Of a stretch of 32,897 bases of DNA, positions 955 through 32,897 are shown in pieces (the stretch's first letter is position 1; each line of letters begins with the position of its first letter). The stretch lies in assembly GCA_017464345.1 (NCBI GenBank), contig JAFUAH010000014.1, positions 1-32,897 on the forward strand, read 5' to 3'. This DNA comes from Bacteroidaceae bacterium (GTDB taxonomy: Bacteria; Bacteroidota; Bacteroidia; Bacteroidales; Bacteroidaceae). The translations under genes and the position numbers were made by a program. The notes under the pieces were generated by a model, which was given only the letters and a program-made list of their open reading frames with translations, did no database searches and was not told the DNA's origin.

Positions 955-1729
955 AGTCTTTATCTAGAAAAACATTGAAAACCACTTGGTTGATAGACGA
1001 TGACGGATGTGCAGAGTGCCATGCCTTCACAGTGGCAAGGGCAATATCAGCGGCACGTTTGTTCGGAAAATGGAACACCCCTGTAGAGATACAACAGAAG
1101 GCGATGCTCAGCAGATGATGCTGTTCCGCAAGGTCGAGACAGGAGTGATAGCACTGGGCCAGTTGCTCCTCTTGCTCTCGGCTGGGCAGGTCCGTCTCTA
1201 TGATGGGGCCTACGGTGTGGATGACGTGGTGGGCGGGCAGGTTGTAGCCTCGTGTCATTATGGCTTCGCCCGTCTTCAGGAGTCTGCTCTGTAGTTGGTC
1301 GTAACACTCCTGTCGCAGTTGGATGCCTGCAGCCGAATGGATGCAGTTGTCGATGCAGTTGTGTAGTGGAGCCCAGCAGCCCAGTCCCTGTGCATTGGCG
1401 GCATTTACGATGGCATCCACCTTCAGGCGGGTGATGTCGCCCTGCCAAAGGAGTATTGAAAAATTAGAAAAATGAAAAATTGAAGATTCCCATTCTTCCA
1501 TCCTTCCATCCTTCAATATTTTCACAATCCCCTTGTCCTCAGCCTGCTGTTGCAATTCTGCGTCCTGTGCTTTCAAAAAGTCGTCACTCGCAGGTATCGG
1601 TTCCCTGACGTTCATCAGGGCACGCATCATTCGCTGCTTCTCGACGAGTGAGGTAGGCAGGGCAAATCGCCTGCCATTGTCGGCCATCAGCCGATGCAGG
1701 ATGTAGTCAAGGTTGTCGTTTCTGTCCAT
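920..1729 (-). CDS. Zinc-type macrodomain protein-ADP-ribose hydrolase
   Basis: It is predicted to remove ADP-ribose from proteins, reversing the neighbouring sirtuin. From the chosen start the protein has 269 aa. An N-terminal helical part (residues 1-75, with the family-like RALMNVREP) precedes the macrodomain (about 92-269). The macrodomain contains LLWQGDITRL, DAIVNAAN and the zinc-type segment GLGCWAPLHNCIDNCIH, in which Cys118, His123 and Cys125 are the likely metal ligands. The phosphate-binding loop CCISTGVFHFP is at 212-222. The reading frame extends 13 codons further upstream, into the previous gene. The ATG at 1729 is preferred because it starts 4 nt after that gene's stop. Between GIV and LWQGD the protein carries about ten extra low-complexity residues encoded by purine/pyrimidine repeat arms (see 1452-1517). 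Confidence 0.88.
   Translation of the reverse strand: MDRNDNLDYILHRLMADNGRRFALPTSLVEKQRMMRALMNVREPIPASDDFLKAQDAELQQQAEDKGIVKILKDGRMEEWESSIFHFSNFSILLWQGDITRLKVDAIVNAANAQGLGCWAPLHNCIDNCIHSAAGIQLRQECYDQLQSRLLKTGEAIMTRGYNLPAHHVIHTVGPIIETDLPSREQEEQLAQCYHSCLDLAEQHHLLSIAFCCISTGVFHFPNKRAADIALATVKAWHSAHPSSSINQVVFNVFLDKDYDIYRRLLTTN
1452..1517. repeat. Repeat-arm element inside the macrodomain gene
   Basis: On the plus strand an A-rich arm of GAAAAATT-like units (1452-1485) faces a pyrimidine arm of CTTCCATC units (1492-1516). Both outer ends carry ATTGAA/TTCAAT, so the arms form a degenerate inverted repeat. On the minus strand it is translated in frame as a Phe/Ser/Trp/Glu-rich linker just before the macrodomain. 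It resembles the other unit-built palindromes in this window. Confidence 0.5.
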
Positions 1730-7571: not shown

Positions 7572-7693
7572 TGGTTTTCTCCATAATCGTCTGTGTATCC
7601 GTTTGAAAAGGGCTAAAATAGGAATCCTTCCCCCTATTGTTGAGGCGTACCCCTGTCTATGTCCGCCATCCTCATATTTCGCGGAGAAGTCAC

Positions 7694-7781
7694 GCACCTA
7701 ATTGAATGAGCCAATGCATCTAATTGAAAAGGCCAGCGCATTTAATTGAATGAGCCTGTTCTACTAACTGAATCAAGCAAG
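7694..7781. repeat. 22-nt tandem repeat, four units
   Basis: Units begin at 7694, 7716, 7738 and 7760. The first three share GCAYYTAATTGAA and a GGCC/GAGCC-like end; the fourth is degenerate (CTACTAACTGAA core). The spacing is exactly 22 nt, about two helical turns. A related three-unit array lies before purA. Confidence 0.8.
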
Positions 7782-12216: not shown

Positions 12217-12301
12217 AACCACGAATTACACGAATTTCACGAATTTATGGCTACGCCCTTGTCTGCAAAGCCAATTCGTGAAATTCGTGTAATTCGTGGT
12301 T
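12217..12301. repeat. Perfect 29-bp palindrome built of 9-nt CACGAATTw units
   Basis: The left arm (12217-12245) and right arm (12273-12301) are exact reverse complements over 29 nt, with a 27-nt loop. Each arm is three copies of CACGAATT(A/T) after a leading AAC. It lies between the small ORF and leuA and could form a strong hairpin. It is the clearest member of the unit-built palindrome series. Confidence 0.92.
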
Positions 12302-13947: not shown

Positions 13948-14102
13948 TCAACACAGAGTCTTTCGTTGTATAGAGGACGCAAGAGGAGCCTACGGCTCTG
14001 CGCAGAGGCCTACGGCGAGGTGATGGACGCAGCCTCTCCGTGAAGCATCCGTGGATGTCTCTTTTGTAAGGCTCAAATACAAAATATATTCCTCTGTGTT
14101 GA
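13948..14102. repeat. Degenerate CACAGAG palindrome between leuA and leuC
   Basis: TCAACACAGAG (13948-13958) is repeated in reverse complement at 14092-14102. Between them are broken GACGCAGAG/CTCTGCG-like units and two GCCTACGGC copies. It looks like a decayed member of the unit-built palindrome series inside the operon. Confidence 0.6.
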
Positions 14103-17652: not shown

Positions 17653-17795
17653 CGGAGTTAAAGGAATTAAAGGAATTAAAAGGGAGTTAAAGAAGTTAAA
17701 TGACGGTACATATAGCCTATGAGTATTCGCAGCGTACAAAACATTCGTCCTTTAACTTCCCAGCGAAGCGATAACTCCTTTAACTTCCTTAACTA
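17653..17795. repeat. Palindrome of 9-nt GGARTTAAA units between cimA and leuB
   Basis: The left arm (17653-17700) has about five GGAGTTAAA/GGAATTAAA copies. The right arm (17748-17795) has the reverse complement units (TTTAACTTCC, TAACTCC), with one interruption at 17760-17770. The loop is about 47 nt. It begins a few bases after the cimA stop and ends just before leuB. Confidence 0.8.
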
Positions 17796-17810
17796 CTAAT
17801 TAAGAAGATT

Positions 17811-18872
17811 ATGAAACTGAAGATTGCAGTATTGGCCGGTGACGGTATCGGCCCCGAGATTATGGAACAAGGTGTGGCCGTCATGTCGGTCGTAGCCGAG
17901 AAGTTCGGACACGAAGTGAGTTACAAGGAAGCCCTCTGTGGGGCCCATGCCATTGATGAGGTGGGCGACCCTTTCCCAGAGGAGACTTTCCAGACCTGTA
18001 TGGAGGCCGATGCCGTGCTCTTTGCCAGCGTGGGCGACCCGAAGTTCGACAATGACCCCACGGCCCGGGTGCGCCCCGAGCAGGGGCTATTGGCCATGCG
18101 CAAGCGGCTGGGCCTCTTTGCCAACATACGCCCCGTAGAGACTTTCGACTGTCTGGTGCACAAGTCGCCCCTGAAGGACGAACTCGTGCGCGGTGCCGAC
18201 TTCATCTGCATCCGTGAGCTCACGGGTGGCATGTATTTTGGCGAAAAGAAGGAAGGAACGGACGAGGCCTACGACACCAACTACTATTCGCGCCCCGAGG
18301 TGGAGCGCATCCTGCGCGTGGCCTATCAGTATGCCCGCCAGCGCAGGAAGCACCTGACCGTGGTCGATAAGGCCAACGTGCTGGCATCGAGCCGGCTGTG
18401 GCGAAAGGTGGCACAGGAGATGATGACAGAGTACCCCGATGTCACCACCGATTTCATGTATGTCGATAATGCGGCCATGCGCATGATACAGGAGCCCCGT
18501 TTCTTCGACGTAATGGTCACCGAGAACACCTTTGGCGACATCCTCACCGACGAGGGTTCGTGCATCACCGGCTCCATGGGCCTCCTGCCCAGTGCCTCTA
18601 CGGGCGAGCACACGCCTGTCTTCGAGCCCATCCACGGTTCTTGGCCCCAGGGCAAGGGGCTGAACATCGCCAATCCGCTGGCACAAATCCTTTCCGTGGC
18701 CATGCTCTATGAGTACTTTGGCCTGAAGCAGGAGGGCCGGCTCATCCGTGAGGCCGTCAATGCCTCCCTAGACCAGAACGTCCGCACGCCGGAGATACAG
18801 GTGGAGGGCGCTCCGCGCTACGGCACCCGTGAGGTCGGCCAGTGGATTGTAGATTATATAAAAGGAAAATGA
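17811..18872 (+). CDS. leuB: 3-isopropylmalate dehydrogenase
   Basis: It oxidatively decarboxylates 3-isopropylmalate with NAD, and would also act on methylmalate in the citramalate route. The 353-aa protein shows [27 protein letters not shown], the catalytic segment [24 protein letters not shown], the signature [14 protein letters not shown] and [17 protein letters not shown], where the adenine ribose of NAD binds. All expected catalytic residues appear present. It is the last leucine gene of the operon; its TGA lies inside the left arm of the repeat at 18866-18997. Confidence 0.96.
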
Positions 18873-18997
18873 GAGAATGAGAAAATGGGAGAATGAGAAA
18901 ATGAGAAAGAGGTTAAGTACATATATTGGGCGATATAAGATAAGTAAGAGACTATGGCTCGTGCTGTTTTCTCATTTTCTCATTTTCTCATTTTCTT
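18866..18997. repeat. Palindrome of 8-nt TGAGAAAA units at the TPR-gene start
   Basis: The left arm (18866-18909) is five to six copies of ATGAGAAA/ATGGGAGA. The right arm (18967-18997) is TTTTCTCA units, the reverse complement. The left arm contains the leuB stop and both candidate starts of the TPR gene; the right arm encodes the hydrophobic core of its signal peptide. Confidence 0.85.
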
Positions 18998-23034: not shown

Positions 23035-24306
23035 ATGGCAAAAGGTAAAGTAGATGCCCTGCTGGGTATTGTTTTTGGAGATGAGGGTAAGGGAAAGGTC
23101 GTGGACGTCTTTACTCCCAAGTACGACATTGTGGCTCGTTTCGCTGGTGGCCCTAATGCTGGTCACACCATCATCTTCGAGGGCAAGAAGTTTGTCCTGC
23201 GCTCCATACCTTCAGGCATTTTTGCCGAGGACAAGCTGAACATCATCGGCAATGGCTGCGTGGTGGCACCAGACCTCTTCATGGCTGAAGCGTGCGAACT
23301 GGAGGCTGCAGGCTACGATTTGCGCAGCCGACTGCACATCAGCAAGCGGGCCCACCTCATCCTGCCTACCCATCGGGTGCTCGACCGTGCATACGAGGCT
23401 GCAAAAGGAAAGAACAAGGTGGGGACTACAGGTAAGGGCATTGGTCCGACGTACAGCGAGAAGGCTGCCCGTACGGGACTGCGTGTCGGTGACATGCTGG
23501 AAGACTTCGAGGAAAAGTACCGTACGCTGAAAGCCCGTCACGAGGAAACACTGCGTCAGTTGGGCTATACCGATTACGACATTACCGAGGAGGAACGCCT
23601 ATGGATGAAGGGCGTGGAGTACATGCGTTCCTTCCCCCTGACCGATACCGAAATAGAAATTAACCAGGCCCTGCGCGAGGGCAAGAGCGTCCTGGCCGAA
23701 GGGGCTCAGGGGACGATGCTCGACATAGATCATGGCACCTATCCCTTCGTGTCTTCATCGAACACCGTGTGCGGCGGTGTCTGCACGGGACTGGGCGTTG
23801 CCCCTAACCGCATCGGTGAGGTGTTTGGCATCTTCAAGGCATATTCCACCCGCGTCGGTTCAGGCCCCTTCCCTGTGGAGCTCTTTGACGAGACTGGCGA
23901 CAAGATTCGGGAAATCGGACACGAATATGGGGCCGTGACGGGGCGTAACCGCCGGTGCGGATGGGTCGATTTGGTGGCTCTGCGCTATGCCATCATGGTC
24001 AATGGCGTAACCCAGCTTATCATGATGAAGAGTGATGTCCTGGATGCCTTCCCGACCATCAAGGCCTGTGTGGCATATGAGAAGGACGGCGTGCGCACCA
24101 CCGACATGCCCTTTGATACCGAAGGATGGCAGGCTGTCTATGAGGAACTGCCCGGATGGCAGACCGACCTGACGGGACTGACTGTCGAGAGCCAGTTCCC
24201 CCCGGCTTTCAAAGACTATATCGCCTATTTGGAGCAGAGACTGGAGACACCAATCACCATTCTCTCCGTAGGGCCCGACCGGGCACAGACGATTGTACGA
24301 AGTTGA
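23035..24306 (+). CDS. purA: Adenylosuccinate synthetase
   Basis: It forms adenylosuccinate from IMP, aspartate and GTP in AMP synthesis. The 423-aa cytosolic protein has the GTP-binding GDEGKGKVVD near the N-terminus, with catalytic Asp. It also has GGPNAGHT, TTGKGIGPTYSEKAART, EGAQGTMLDIDHGTYPFVSS, TRVGSGPFP and GRNRRCGWVDLVALRYA. Length and motifs are complete. It has its own upstream region with a 22-nt tandem array and no obvious TAnnTTTG box. Its TGA lies in the left arm of the palindrome that separates it from the convergent coiled-coil gene. Confidence 0.97.
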   Translation: MAKGKVDALLGIVFGDEGKGKVVDVFTPKYDIVARFAGGPNAGHTIIFEGKKFVLRSIPSGIFAEDKLNIIGNGCVVAPDLFMAEACELEAAGYDLRSRLHISKRAHLILPTHRVLDRAYEAAKGKNKVGTTGKGIGPTYSEKAARTGLRVGDMLEDFEEKYRTLKARHEETLRQLGYTDYDITEEERLWMKGVEYMRSFPLTDTEIEINQALREGKSVLAEGAQGTMLDIDHGTYPFVSSSNTVCGGVCTGLGVAPNRIGEVFGIFKAYSTRVGSGPFPVELFDETGDKIREIGHEYGAVTGRNRRCGWVDLVALRYAIMVNGVTQLIMMKSDVLDAFPTIKACVAYEKDGVRTTDMPFDTEGWQAVYEELPGWQTDLTGLTVESQFPPAFKDYIAYLEQRLETPITILSVGPDRAQTIVRS

Positions 24307-24428
24307 AAATTGAAAGTTGAGAGTTGAGAGTTAAGCCTTCGGCAAGATTGATTTCGCAACAAAGGCATTGCCTAATGTTTCAACTTTCACCTCTCAACTC
24401 TCAACTTTCAACCCTTTAACTTTTCAAC
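24302..24428. repeat. Palindrome of GTTGAAAR/GTTGAGAG units between convergent genes
   Basis: The left arm (24302-24332) contains GTTGAAA and GTTGAGA units. The right arm (24381-24428) contains the complementary TCTCAACT/TTTCAACT units. The purA stop is in the left arm and the stop of the leftward coiled-coil gene is in the right arm, so it may end transcription from both sides. Confidence 0.82.
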
Positions 24429-30028: not shown

Positions 30029-31444
30029 ATGAAGACAAAACACGCAGCCTTGCTGCTTTTAGCCTTGCTCAGTGTGCAGTGCACACAGCAGAAGACACAG
30101 GAAGAGGAAGTGAACGACATGACTACGCCGCTCCATCTCTTAACACCCGATTACAAGACTCCCTATGGAGAAGTGAATAAGGAAGACATACGTGCTGCGC
30201 TCGACCGTATCTTCCAGTACGTTGATGTTCAGACACCCCATGCCCTGAAGGATGACGGAACGCTGGAGCGCGGAGCTTTCCGCATTGGCTCCTACGAGTG
30301 GGGCATCACTTATCAGGCCCTGTTGACAGCTGCTGAAGTGACTGGTGAACAGAAGTATAGCGACTACGTGAAGACCCGCTTCCAGTTCATTGCCGAAGTG
30401 GCACCGAAATTTCGTGAACAGGAGACATGCGAGGATGCACAGATGGAACAAATTCTCCATCCTCGTGCCCTGGATGACTGCGGCACAATGTGCACGGCCA
30501 TGATGAAGTTTAAAGTTGGAAGTTCGGCCTCCGAAGAGACTCAAGCAAATGATGAAGCGAAGCAACTCTCAACTTTCAACGCTCAACTTTCAATTCTCAT
30601 AGAGAACTATTTCGACTTTGTGGAGAATCAGCAGTACCGTTTGCCAGACCGGACCTTTGCCCGTCATCGCCCTCAGCGTAACACCATTTGGCTCGACGAC
30701 ATGTATATGGGCATACCCACTATCGCATACCGCGGAATCTACACAGGCGATACGAAGTACTTCGACGAAGCCGCCACGATGTACAAAAATTTTGTACGCC
30801 GTATGTGGGTTCCCGAAAAAGGAATCTATCGTCATGGTTATGTGGAAGGTCTGGAAGAAGAACCCACCTATCACTGGGCACGCGCCAACGGATGGGCTGT
30901 GCTGACCACCGTTGAGCTGCTGGATATACTGCCAGAGAACCATCCCGACCGCCCCTTCATCATGGAACAACTTAAGAAACATGTTGCCGGGCTGGCCTCC
31001 TATCAGTCCAGCGAGGGCTTCTGGCATCAGTTGCTTGACCGCTCGGATTCTTACCTAGAGACTAGTGCCACCGCCATCTACACCTATTGCATAGCCCGTG
31101 CCATCAACCAGGGTTGGCTCGACGGCATCACATACGGGCCAGTGGCTCAGCTCGGTTGGCATGCTTTGGCCACACAGATTACGGAAGAAGGACTGGTGAA
31201 GGGAACCTGTGTCGGTACGGGCATGGCCTTCGACCCAGCTTTCTACTACTATCGTCCTGTTTCCGCTGCTGCTGCCCATGGCTATGGACCTGCCATCTGG
31301 GCTGCTGCTGAGATGCTGCGTCTGCTGGATAACTGGTACCCACGCACCAACGACTCTGGTCTCCATTATTACGACCAGGAGCAGACCAACGAAAGTCCTC
31401 TCTTCTACCTGACAGAGGACGGCAAGGGCGAAGCGGTGAAGTAA
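30029..31444 (+). CDS. GH105-type unsaturated uronyl hydrolase, lipoprotein
   Basis: This is a 471-aa (alpha/alpha)6-barrel hydrolase of the GH105/GH88 type, which cleaves unsaturated uronic acid left by polysaccharide lyases (for example YteR on rhamnogalacturonan). Family motifs are DDCGTMC, the active-site segment TIWLDDMYMGIPT, GIYRHGYVEG, YHWARANGWAV and GFWHQLLDR. The N-terminus MKTKHAALLLLALLSVQC looks like a lipoprotein signal, though the -1 Gln is unusual. Residues from about 160 to 190 are a low-complexity insertion (SSASEETQANDEAKQLSTFN) encoded by a repeat element at 30506-30599, just before the conserved NYFDFV helix. The gene starts 8 nt after GH20, so they are cotranscribed. 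Confidence 0.88.
   Translation: MKTKHAALLLLALLSVQCTQQKTQEEEVNDMTTPLHLLTPDYKTPYGEVNKEDIRAALDRIFQYVDVQTPHALKDDGTLERGAFRIGSYEWGITYQALLTAAEVTGEQKYSDYVKTRFQFIAEVAPKFREQETCEDAQMEQILHPRALDDCGTMCTAMMKFKVGSSASEETQANDEAKQLSTFNAQLSILIENYFDFVENQQYRLPDRTFARHRPQRNTIWLDDMYMGIPTIAYRGIYTGDTKYFDEAATMYKNFVRRMWVPEKGIYRHGYVEGLEEEPTYHWARANGWAVLTTVELLDILPENHPDRPFIMEQLKKHVAGLASYQSSEGFWHQLLDRSDSYLETSATAIYTYCIARAINQGWLDGITYGPVAQLGWHALATQITEEGLVKGTCVGTGMAFDPAFYYYRPVSAAAAHGYGPAIWAAAEMLRLLDNWYPRTNDSGLHYYDQEQTNESPLFYLTEDGKGEAVK
30506..30599. repeat. Repeat-arm element inside the GH105 gene
   Basis: The right arm (30563-30599) consists of CAACTCTC/AACTTTCA units, the same unit type as at 24302-24428. The left arm (30506-30524) has the complementary AAAGTTGGAAGTT. 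It is translated in frame as an extra loop of about 30 residues. Confidence 0.65.
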
Positions 31445-32470: not shown

Positions 32471-32487
32471 GCTTTTTTACTGAAATA

Positions 32488-32541
32488 ATAACAAATGCGG
32501 GCGGTGTATATCTTTGTGTATGCACCGCCCGCATTTGTTAT
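32488..32541. terminator. Strong 19-bp hairpin, bidirectional terminator
   Basis: The arms 32488-32506 and 32523-32541 are perfect reverse complements over 19 nt, with a GC-rich GCGGGCGGTG core, a 16-nt loop and a following TTGACTTTTTA. It lies 17 nt after the DUF4861-like stop and should end the GH20 operon. The loop contains TATCTTTG, a -7-like word, without a -33 partner. Confidence 0.85.
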
Positions 32542-32561
32542 TTGACTTTTTAGAATAGAAA

Positions 32562-32592
32562 TCCATCTCTTCCTAAGAGATGGACATGGTAC
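32562..32592. repeat. Left copy of a 31-bp inverted repeat
   Basis: It is the reverse complement of 32729-32759 with one mismatch in 31. Each copy also contains its own small hairpin (CCATCTCTT/AAGAGATGG), perfect in this copy. Confidence 0.85.
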
Positions 32593-32897
32593 TGCAAAGG
32601 TACGTAAAATATTGAAAATAGCCATTCTTTTGAACGTCTTTTTTTACTGATACCTGTTTTTCGTATCATTCTTATGAGACAAAGCTCTATACCATTCGTT
32701 TGTAAACACTTTGCTCATAGTACTTCAGGTACCATGTCCATCTCTTAGGAAGAGACGGACATGGGGCCGCTTCATAGAAGCTGCTGGAAATCAGCGCGAA
32801 TACATGGAACGAGCAACAGCGTTTACCTCCATCCCTGTCCACTGCACCCCGTTGTGCGGTGTCCCCCTCCATTGGTTTCCGATGCGTGTCACCTACA
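32593..32897. other. Non-coding end of the window
   Basis: No convincing gene. It contains a minus-strand TACCTTTG word (32595-32602), the right inverted-repeat copy and a 3' edge of ordinary mixed composition. A gene entering from the right edge cannot be excluded. Confidence 0.5.
32729..32759. repeat. Right copy of the 31-bp inverted repeat
   Basis: It pairs with 32562-32592. The 136-nt interval between them has no gene. Confidence 0.85.

Follow-up and report, generated by a model that had tools for sequence, protein, structure and literature searches.

What makes two facing arms of short tandem repeats, such as those at position 12217, complementary to each other, and why do palindromes of the same build recur with other repeat units along the same DNA? 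The window analysed here is the whole stretch of 32,897 nucleotides, which is all of contig 2 of G000, a 61%-complete metagenome-assembled genome (MAG). Among the named records listed, the one closest to its leuA product (96% at the amino acid level) is from a Bacteroidaceae MAG of roe-deer omasum. A first-pass annotation had listed seven palindromic loci in the window, each with a repeat unit of its own that is shared by its two arms, and had suggested that one arm is copied into the other locally. Facing arms built of a common unit are indeed found, and several units exist. Four of the seven loci are clear palindromes (12217, 17653, 18865, and 24300) and two are decayed members of palindrome families (13948 and 30506), but the one at 1452 is unsupported (Table 1).

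Table 1. Positions in the window of the palindromic elements and of the repeats proposed as such.
Feature	Positions	Strand	Remark
Short repeats proposed in the first-pass annotation	1452..1516		unsupported as palindrome by array match, fold, and alignment
Gene-less palindromic element, CACGAATTW family	12217..12301		about three 9-nt units per arm; GGCTACGCC in core
Left arm of 12217 element	12217..12245	+	29 nt
Right arm of 12217 element	12273..12301	-	29/29 complementary to left arm
Decayed gene-less member of AACACAGAG family, dispersed element of about 155 nt	13948..14102		between leuA and leuC
Palindromic element, GGARTTAAA units of 9-11 nt, gapped arms	17653..17800		between two leu-operon genes
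Palindromic element, 8-nt GAAAATGA units	18865..18996		overlaps leuB stop codon
Palindromic element, GTTGARA 7-nt units	24300..24412		between convergent genes (end of purA)
Decayed GTTGARA element, in frame within GH88-family gene	30506..30600	+	open frame through element

At 12217 the arms are 100% complementary with a spacing of 27 nt (RNA fold z -13.3). Copies that correspond to it along both arms and core occur in L059, L067, L053, and L048, L033 has most of the element, and arms with the same unit enclose a GxxExxY gene at G000:C37:16346-16681. The element at 17653 (fold z -3.3) matches L029 at 70% over 141 columns and is absent from the orthologous gap in G016 and G001. For the element at 18865 (fold z -7.7), matches to other copies in its own genome cover the arms only, with the core excluded, and no gene-bearing relative was found among the loci examined. 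That at 24300 (z -6.7, folded from 24302) matches L034 at 82% over 109 columns, and a unit like its own is found in the arms around a PF05635 gene (L006:11299-11770). The decayed member at 13948 retains only 11-nt outer arms (TCAACACAGAG/CTCTGTGTTGA; full-length fold z -2.6) and matches L013 at 76% over 170 columns, with more copies in L067, L010, L033, L016, and L064. The one at 30506 (fold z -0.05) matches L052 at 75% over 91 columns and appears as extra residues when the GH88-family protein is aligned with PDB 3k11. At 1452 the array match is 5.5, the fold z is -0.3, and elsewhere in the genome only short weak matches are found. Other repeats in the window are a 22-nt tandem repeat in three copies upstream of a gene (7692-7756) and, near the contig end, a 24-nt hairpin (32487-32542) and a 31-nt inverted repeat with a spacing of 136 nt (32562-32759), neither of which is of the tandem-unit type.

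Palindromes of this type are common in the genome. In a sample of 1.19 Mb of its 1.90 Mb, TRF lists 376 arrays with periods of 6-12 nt, which form 72 pairs at most 300 nt apart. Half of these pairs (36/72) match as inverted repeats and 2/72 as direct repeats; random pairs of arrays give 1.7% inverted and 1.5% direct matches. The sample contains 98 inverted repeats of any kind scoring at least 18, of which 29 are periodic, and a block-shuffled copy of it contains none. The 9-nt CACGAATT pair pattern occurs 118 times in the genome and a control pattern once (at most two mismatches, overlapping matches included). Arms and core of five of the seven window loci (12217, 13948, 17653, 24302, and 30506) align with other copies in their own genome, so that they have dispersed copies with common ends and core, as miniature inverted-repeat elements (MITEs) do; several dispersed families are therefore present. 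The units are thus specific to families and not, as annotated, to loci, and the accompanying statement that one fixed sequence cannot explain all of the palindromes stands. Many element cores contain small GGC-NNN-GCC hairpins (by eye). Another dispersed palindrome of G000, with near-fixed CTTGTGGGTCAATTGTCCGTCAAG-type arms and a GC-rich core (L005:15121, L014:15358, L020:13660), has many copies in the sample.

Counts of the unit types differ sharply among genomes of one genus, as expected for recent expansions. G017 has 167 ACAGATT matches, and the GxxExxY gene at its C52 sits between ACAGATT arms. G014 also has an ACAGATT-flanked gene, but this gene has few gene-less kin (five ACAGATT matches in all). 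G013 has the highest ACGAATT count (78), yet both of its GxxExxY genes are in or beside other units, and among the 72 ACGGATT matches of G014 no GxxExxY gene is seen within such arms, these MAGs being incomplete.

A search for arms lying far apart finds small genes between them. Genes for four-helix intervening-sequence proteins (IVP) occur between ATTCACA arms and between GTTGAAA arms, GxxExxY genes also occur within arms, and in the leuA-leuC gap of several relatives DUF559-like ORFs lie between C-rich palindromes. An associated nuclease-family gene, one of the partners suggested in the first-pass annotation, is thus present in the form of GxxExxY. The enclosed genes belong to PF13366, PF05635, or PF04480, which are not known transposase families; Pfam assignment was run for two IVP genes and two DUF559-like ORFs. 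The member of the 13948 family in L067, which has no gene, aligns with the DNA on either side of the GxxExxY gene at G000:C18:17939-18286, the order of the two flanks being kept (E 8e-8 and 3e-6); in sequence it amounts to the gene-bearing copy minus the gene. The 13948 copy itself has no significant match to this C18 locus (best E 0.019).

The enclosed position is not confined to these examples. When 270 ORFs of 90-180 amino acids in 89 long loci of G000, G016, G020, and G001 were scanned blind, a flanking inverted repeat scoring at least 18 was found at only three: one IVP, one GxxExxY, and one DUF559. In family searches of 31 genomes, arms scoring at least 18 flank 14/26 IVP, 9/22 GxxExxY, and 15/24 DUF559 testable loci, leaving 12, 13, and 9 loci, respectively, without arms at this threshold; 4, 8, and 6 of 30 loci had been dropped for short flanks or partial matches. 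Random intervals have such arms in 5 of 3000 cases. Among the best-scoring loci of a Bacteroidota-wide draw, arms are present at 8/30 IVP and 7/29 GxxExxY loci and missing at 22 of each, with 28/870 and 25/812 (about 3%) in cross-locus pairings as the control. On plasmids, arms scoring at least 18 are found at 9/12 loci (12 of the 18 matches listed; 33 records matched) and then at 6/6 in a further set. The plasmid positives come from Cyanobacteriota, Gemmatimonadota, Pseudomonadota, Spirochaetota, and Bacteroidota, several of the Nostoc loci being related to each other, and the three loci without such arms are a Treponema, a Persicobacter, and a Fusobacteriota locus. A search of viral contigs with one GxxExxY protein of the genome found no relative. 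Among the plasmid loci, in L402 of Anabaena cylindrica an IVP gene flanked by inverted arms separates cas2 from cas1, and L385 of Sphingomonas has a GxxExxY gene between fabD and fabG. IVP genes in cas loci are already on record (PMC3936711).

The length of the unit follows the enclosed gene, 7-8 nt with IVP and 9-10 nt with GxxExxY. Among loci with arms and a clear periodicity, the period is 7 nt at 15, 8 nt at seven, and 11 nt at one of the IVP loci, and 9 nt at 12, 10 nt at two, and 8 nt at one of the GxxExxY loci (Fisher p 2.5e-9 for period against gene family). No clear period is seen at 7/30 IVP and 17/32 GxxExxY loci with arms, and none of the 22 DUF559 arms is periodic. Similar proteins also tend to have similar arms, although the correlation is weak and uncorrected for kinship (Mantel rho 0.25 for IVP, 0.18 for GxxExxY, and 0.37 for DUF559, reached by 4, 182, and 7 of 5000 permutations, respectively). 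Because unit length goes with the gene and arm similarity with protein similarity, the unit may be read as the predicted binding site of the enclosed protein.

We propose that the palindromes are probably gene-less (MITE-like) or decayed copies of very small selfish mobile elements with inverted-iteron ends. Such an element would, in its complete form, have one gene of about 120-140 codons between inverted arrays of short iterons, encoding a GxxExxY protein of the PD-(D/E)XK superfamily, a DUF559 protein, or an S23/IVP four-helix-bundle protein. The ends would consist of about three 9-nt units in the GxxExxY type and often of four or five 7-8-nt units in the IVP type, and would be C-rich and hairpin-like in the DUF559 type. 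Binding of the encoded protein to its own iterons would explain why the unit is common to both arms and why its length is gene-specific. The same protein may promote copying or insertion of gene-bearing and gene-less forms alike, and insertions would persist chiefly between genes or, in frame, in protein loops that tolerate them. Against this reading count the many genes of the three families without arms at the threshold, the loci with arms of no clear period, the unit counts of G013 and G014 that do not agree with their genes, the weakness of the correlation between arms and proteins, and the element at 18865 with its lack of a gene-bearing relative.

It is also conceivable, if rather unlikely, that the palindromes are mobile and the small genes are only passengers, the mover being an unrelated host or trans-acting enzyme such as a tyrosine recombinase, a reverse transcriptase, or another transposase. 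The four-helix bundle is not a known transposase, which also counts against our proposal, and no catalytic function of IVP proteins in mobility is known, which counts for a separate mover. So does L055:5313-6935, where a 387-aa ORF of the phage-integrase family (PF00589) lies between perfect inverted repeats of 55-62 nt, a nearly identical form of which adjoins the GxxExxY gene at G000:C20:25099 (by eye). However, passengers require neither a unit length specific to the gene nor arms whose similarity tracks that of the protein, and three unrelated small genes are each found repeatedly in the enclosed position.

Local templating, in which one arm of a locus would be the template for the other in fold-back or template-switch synthesis, was suggested in the first-pass annotation and now seems quite improbable. 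Some observations do couple the arms. Each arm has its own partner as best match at 27/32 GxxExxY, 28/30 IVP, and 18/22 DUF559 loci, and the number of units in one arm tends to rise with that in the other (rho 0.72, n = 43; for IVP alone, rho 0.50, n = 30), both results being inflated because the loci were chosen for matching arms. The CACGAATT arms of the genome are slightly more alike within a locus (0.907) than across loci (0.874; 13 loci, with 63 of 20,000 permutations as high). An orthologous Nostoc element has 4/4, 4/4, and 3/3 7-nt units per arm in three strains, a symmetric difference of one unit. In Nostoc UHCC 0870 (L397), both arms of an IVP element have the same extra piece at the same place; this was considered as proof of templating and rejected, since the composite is itself dispersed in Nostoc plasmids.

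The ACAGATT elements of G017, the most abundant unit family counted, contradict copying at each locus. Among 100 arms listed of the 167, 42 typed arms are unpaired and were omitted, leaving 29 paired loci. One A-type and one B-type end are combined at 24 of the 29, in both orders (14 and 10), a number reached in 13 of 20,000 random pairings, and arm identity within a locus (0.868) is lower than that of random pairs (0.894). The left end of the ACAGATT element is therefore distinct from its right end, and the element occurs in both orientations; on this ground templating as the main cause was rejected. The families are also dispersed together with their cores. As the elements turn out to be dispersed copies of several families, the outcome on which the first-pass annotation itself had said that local templating fails has largely come about; what stands is that the arms evolve in a coupled way over long times, but not through obligatory templating at each locus.

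Comparison of orthologous sites indicates that the elements come and go between species. Of 150 palindromes or elements queried, 25 have both flanks in a relative, and 19 remain after six plain hairpins are dropped; for two of them (13948 and 17653), only some of the relatives are displayed. In the relatives displayed, the palindrome is found at none of the 19 sites, and one relative retains a single similar array. At five sites a relative carries another, C-rich palindrome or a DUF559 gene. The flanks of the relatives are 68-94% identical, and the turnover is therefore at the level of species. In uvrA, in-frame palindromes of two different families are found at the same position in two species (L036:4301-4394 and L214), and at one position of a MATE-family gene, too, two species have different palindromes in frame. 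In Nostoc plasmids, a cytosine-methyltransferase gene lacks 329 bp where an IVP element lies instead; three other plasmids have the gene intact, so that this event is a replacement rather than a simple insertion. No clear target-site duplication is seen at the junctions read by eye, which, like the replacement in Nostoc, counts against our reading.

The first-pass annotation had also placed many palindromes at a stop codon. A stop codon is overlapped or at most 25 nt away at 16/20 elements with a measurable neighbouring stop, but a start codon is equally near or overlapped at 14/19, and the elements therefore mostly fill short gaps. Eight of 36 are inside ORFs and six of 36 are in divergent gaps. 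The position in short gaps beside stop codons, together with very stable predicted hairpins at four loci, would suit a role in RNA, that is, mRNA 3'-end protection, termination, or RNase III processing, with selection on pairing keeping the arms complementary. This role is nevertheless very improbable, as orthologous sites are seen without conservation, elements inside ORFs and in divergent gaps do not fit it, decayed copies exist, and an Rfam search of the window gives no match.

A gene flanked by palindromic repeats, with solo repeats dispersed elsewhere, is also the general build of REPtrons and TIRtrons, in which RAYT genes are flanked by REPs or long terminal inverted repeats (PMC3733652), but the reading of our palindromes as REP/BIME or TIR repeats that a RAYT, a Y1 transposase, would mobilise is hardly credible and was rejected, because the enclosed genes found belong to other families, no Y1_Tnp match is found in the incomplete genome G000, and in the genus, itself represented by incomplete MAGs, a match with E <= 0.001 is found in 22/61 genomes, of which 17 are over the cut-off and only six have E < 1e-15. 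As in that account, the palindromic repeats are small and mostly intergenic, sometimes lie in genes including repair genes, and flank copies of a gene. In comparison with it, our elements enclose PF13366, PF05635, or PF04480 genes instead of Y1 transposases, and they end in iterons of 7-9 nt, arrayed in inverted orientation. The outer ends of the four clear palindromes of the window, inspected by eye, show neither a GTAG nor a CGTC tag. Integron-like cassettes were set aside as well, since by eye the tandem 9-mer arms do not look like the consensus of attC sites.

Mobile elements of other kinds share one or another feature with those proposed here. Rickettsia palindromic elements are palindromic insertions kept in frame inside protein genes, as are some of ours; unlike them, related elements here also have a small gene and iteron arms. 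MITEs are likewise short, non-coding, and dispersed, with inverted ends and relatives that have a gene between similar ends (PMC10969869, PMC2229807, as far as these describe them), but no DDE transposase partner is seen here. TAACTGA heptamer repeats, 7-nt repeats of intergenic DNA with a similarly patchy phylogenetic spread, are reported from Beggiatoaceae, Cyanobacteria, and some Bacteroidetes in direct sets and one inverted set (PMC4679880); the available part of that report does not tie them to enclosed small genes.

IVP genes with inverted repeats are already known as the intervening sequences (IVS) of 23S rRNA. In one description, an IVP gene lies within terminal inverted repeats with a 28-bp stem in an IVS of 428 nt, which is called a selfish element, and mobility is among the hypotheses cited (PMC4990558). 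The IVP-type elements found here, and only these, are similar in that terminal inverted repeats enclose an S23/IVP ORF. They differ from the IVS so described in that the units occur in intergenic gaps and protein genes and also without a gene, and in that many arms are tandem arrays of 7-8 nt. The elements of the window lie between or in protein genes, with no rRNA match in the window and no insertion into a 23S rRNA helix. Beyond the IVS, searches of the open-access literature brought up no description of palindromes like these around GxxExxY, DUF559, or IVP genes.

The palindromes are thus real, but their first reading has to be changed: they are best read as copies, without the gene, of minimal elements whose iteron ends are gene-specific. 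A wider claim is possible, and we make it only tentatively: the GxxExxY, DUF559, and S23/IVP genes, although unrelated, may together define a single class of minimal selfish elements that has gone unrecognised and extends from Bacteroidota to Cyanobacteriota, in which each protein would read its own inverted iteron array and move gene-bearing and gene-less copies, the classical 23S rRNA IVS being members that landed in rRNA genes.

With this proposal, a large class of palindromes that lacked an explanation acquires an identity that can be tested, and GxxExxY, DUF559, and the four-helix-bundle IVP, families that are common but obscure, acquire a possible function. The gene-specific unit length is a direct handle on binding. 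If the proposal is true, intergenic DNA is shaped by minimal elements that consist of one gene and iteron ends; these elements also insert in frame in UvrA and other proteins, and the IVS of rRNA genes may have originated from them.
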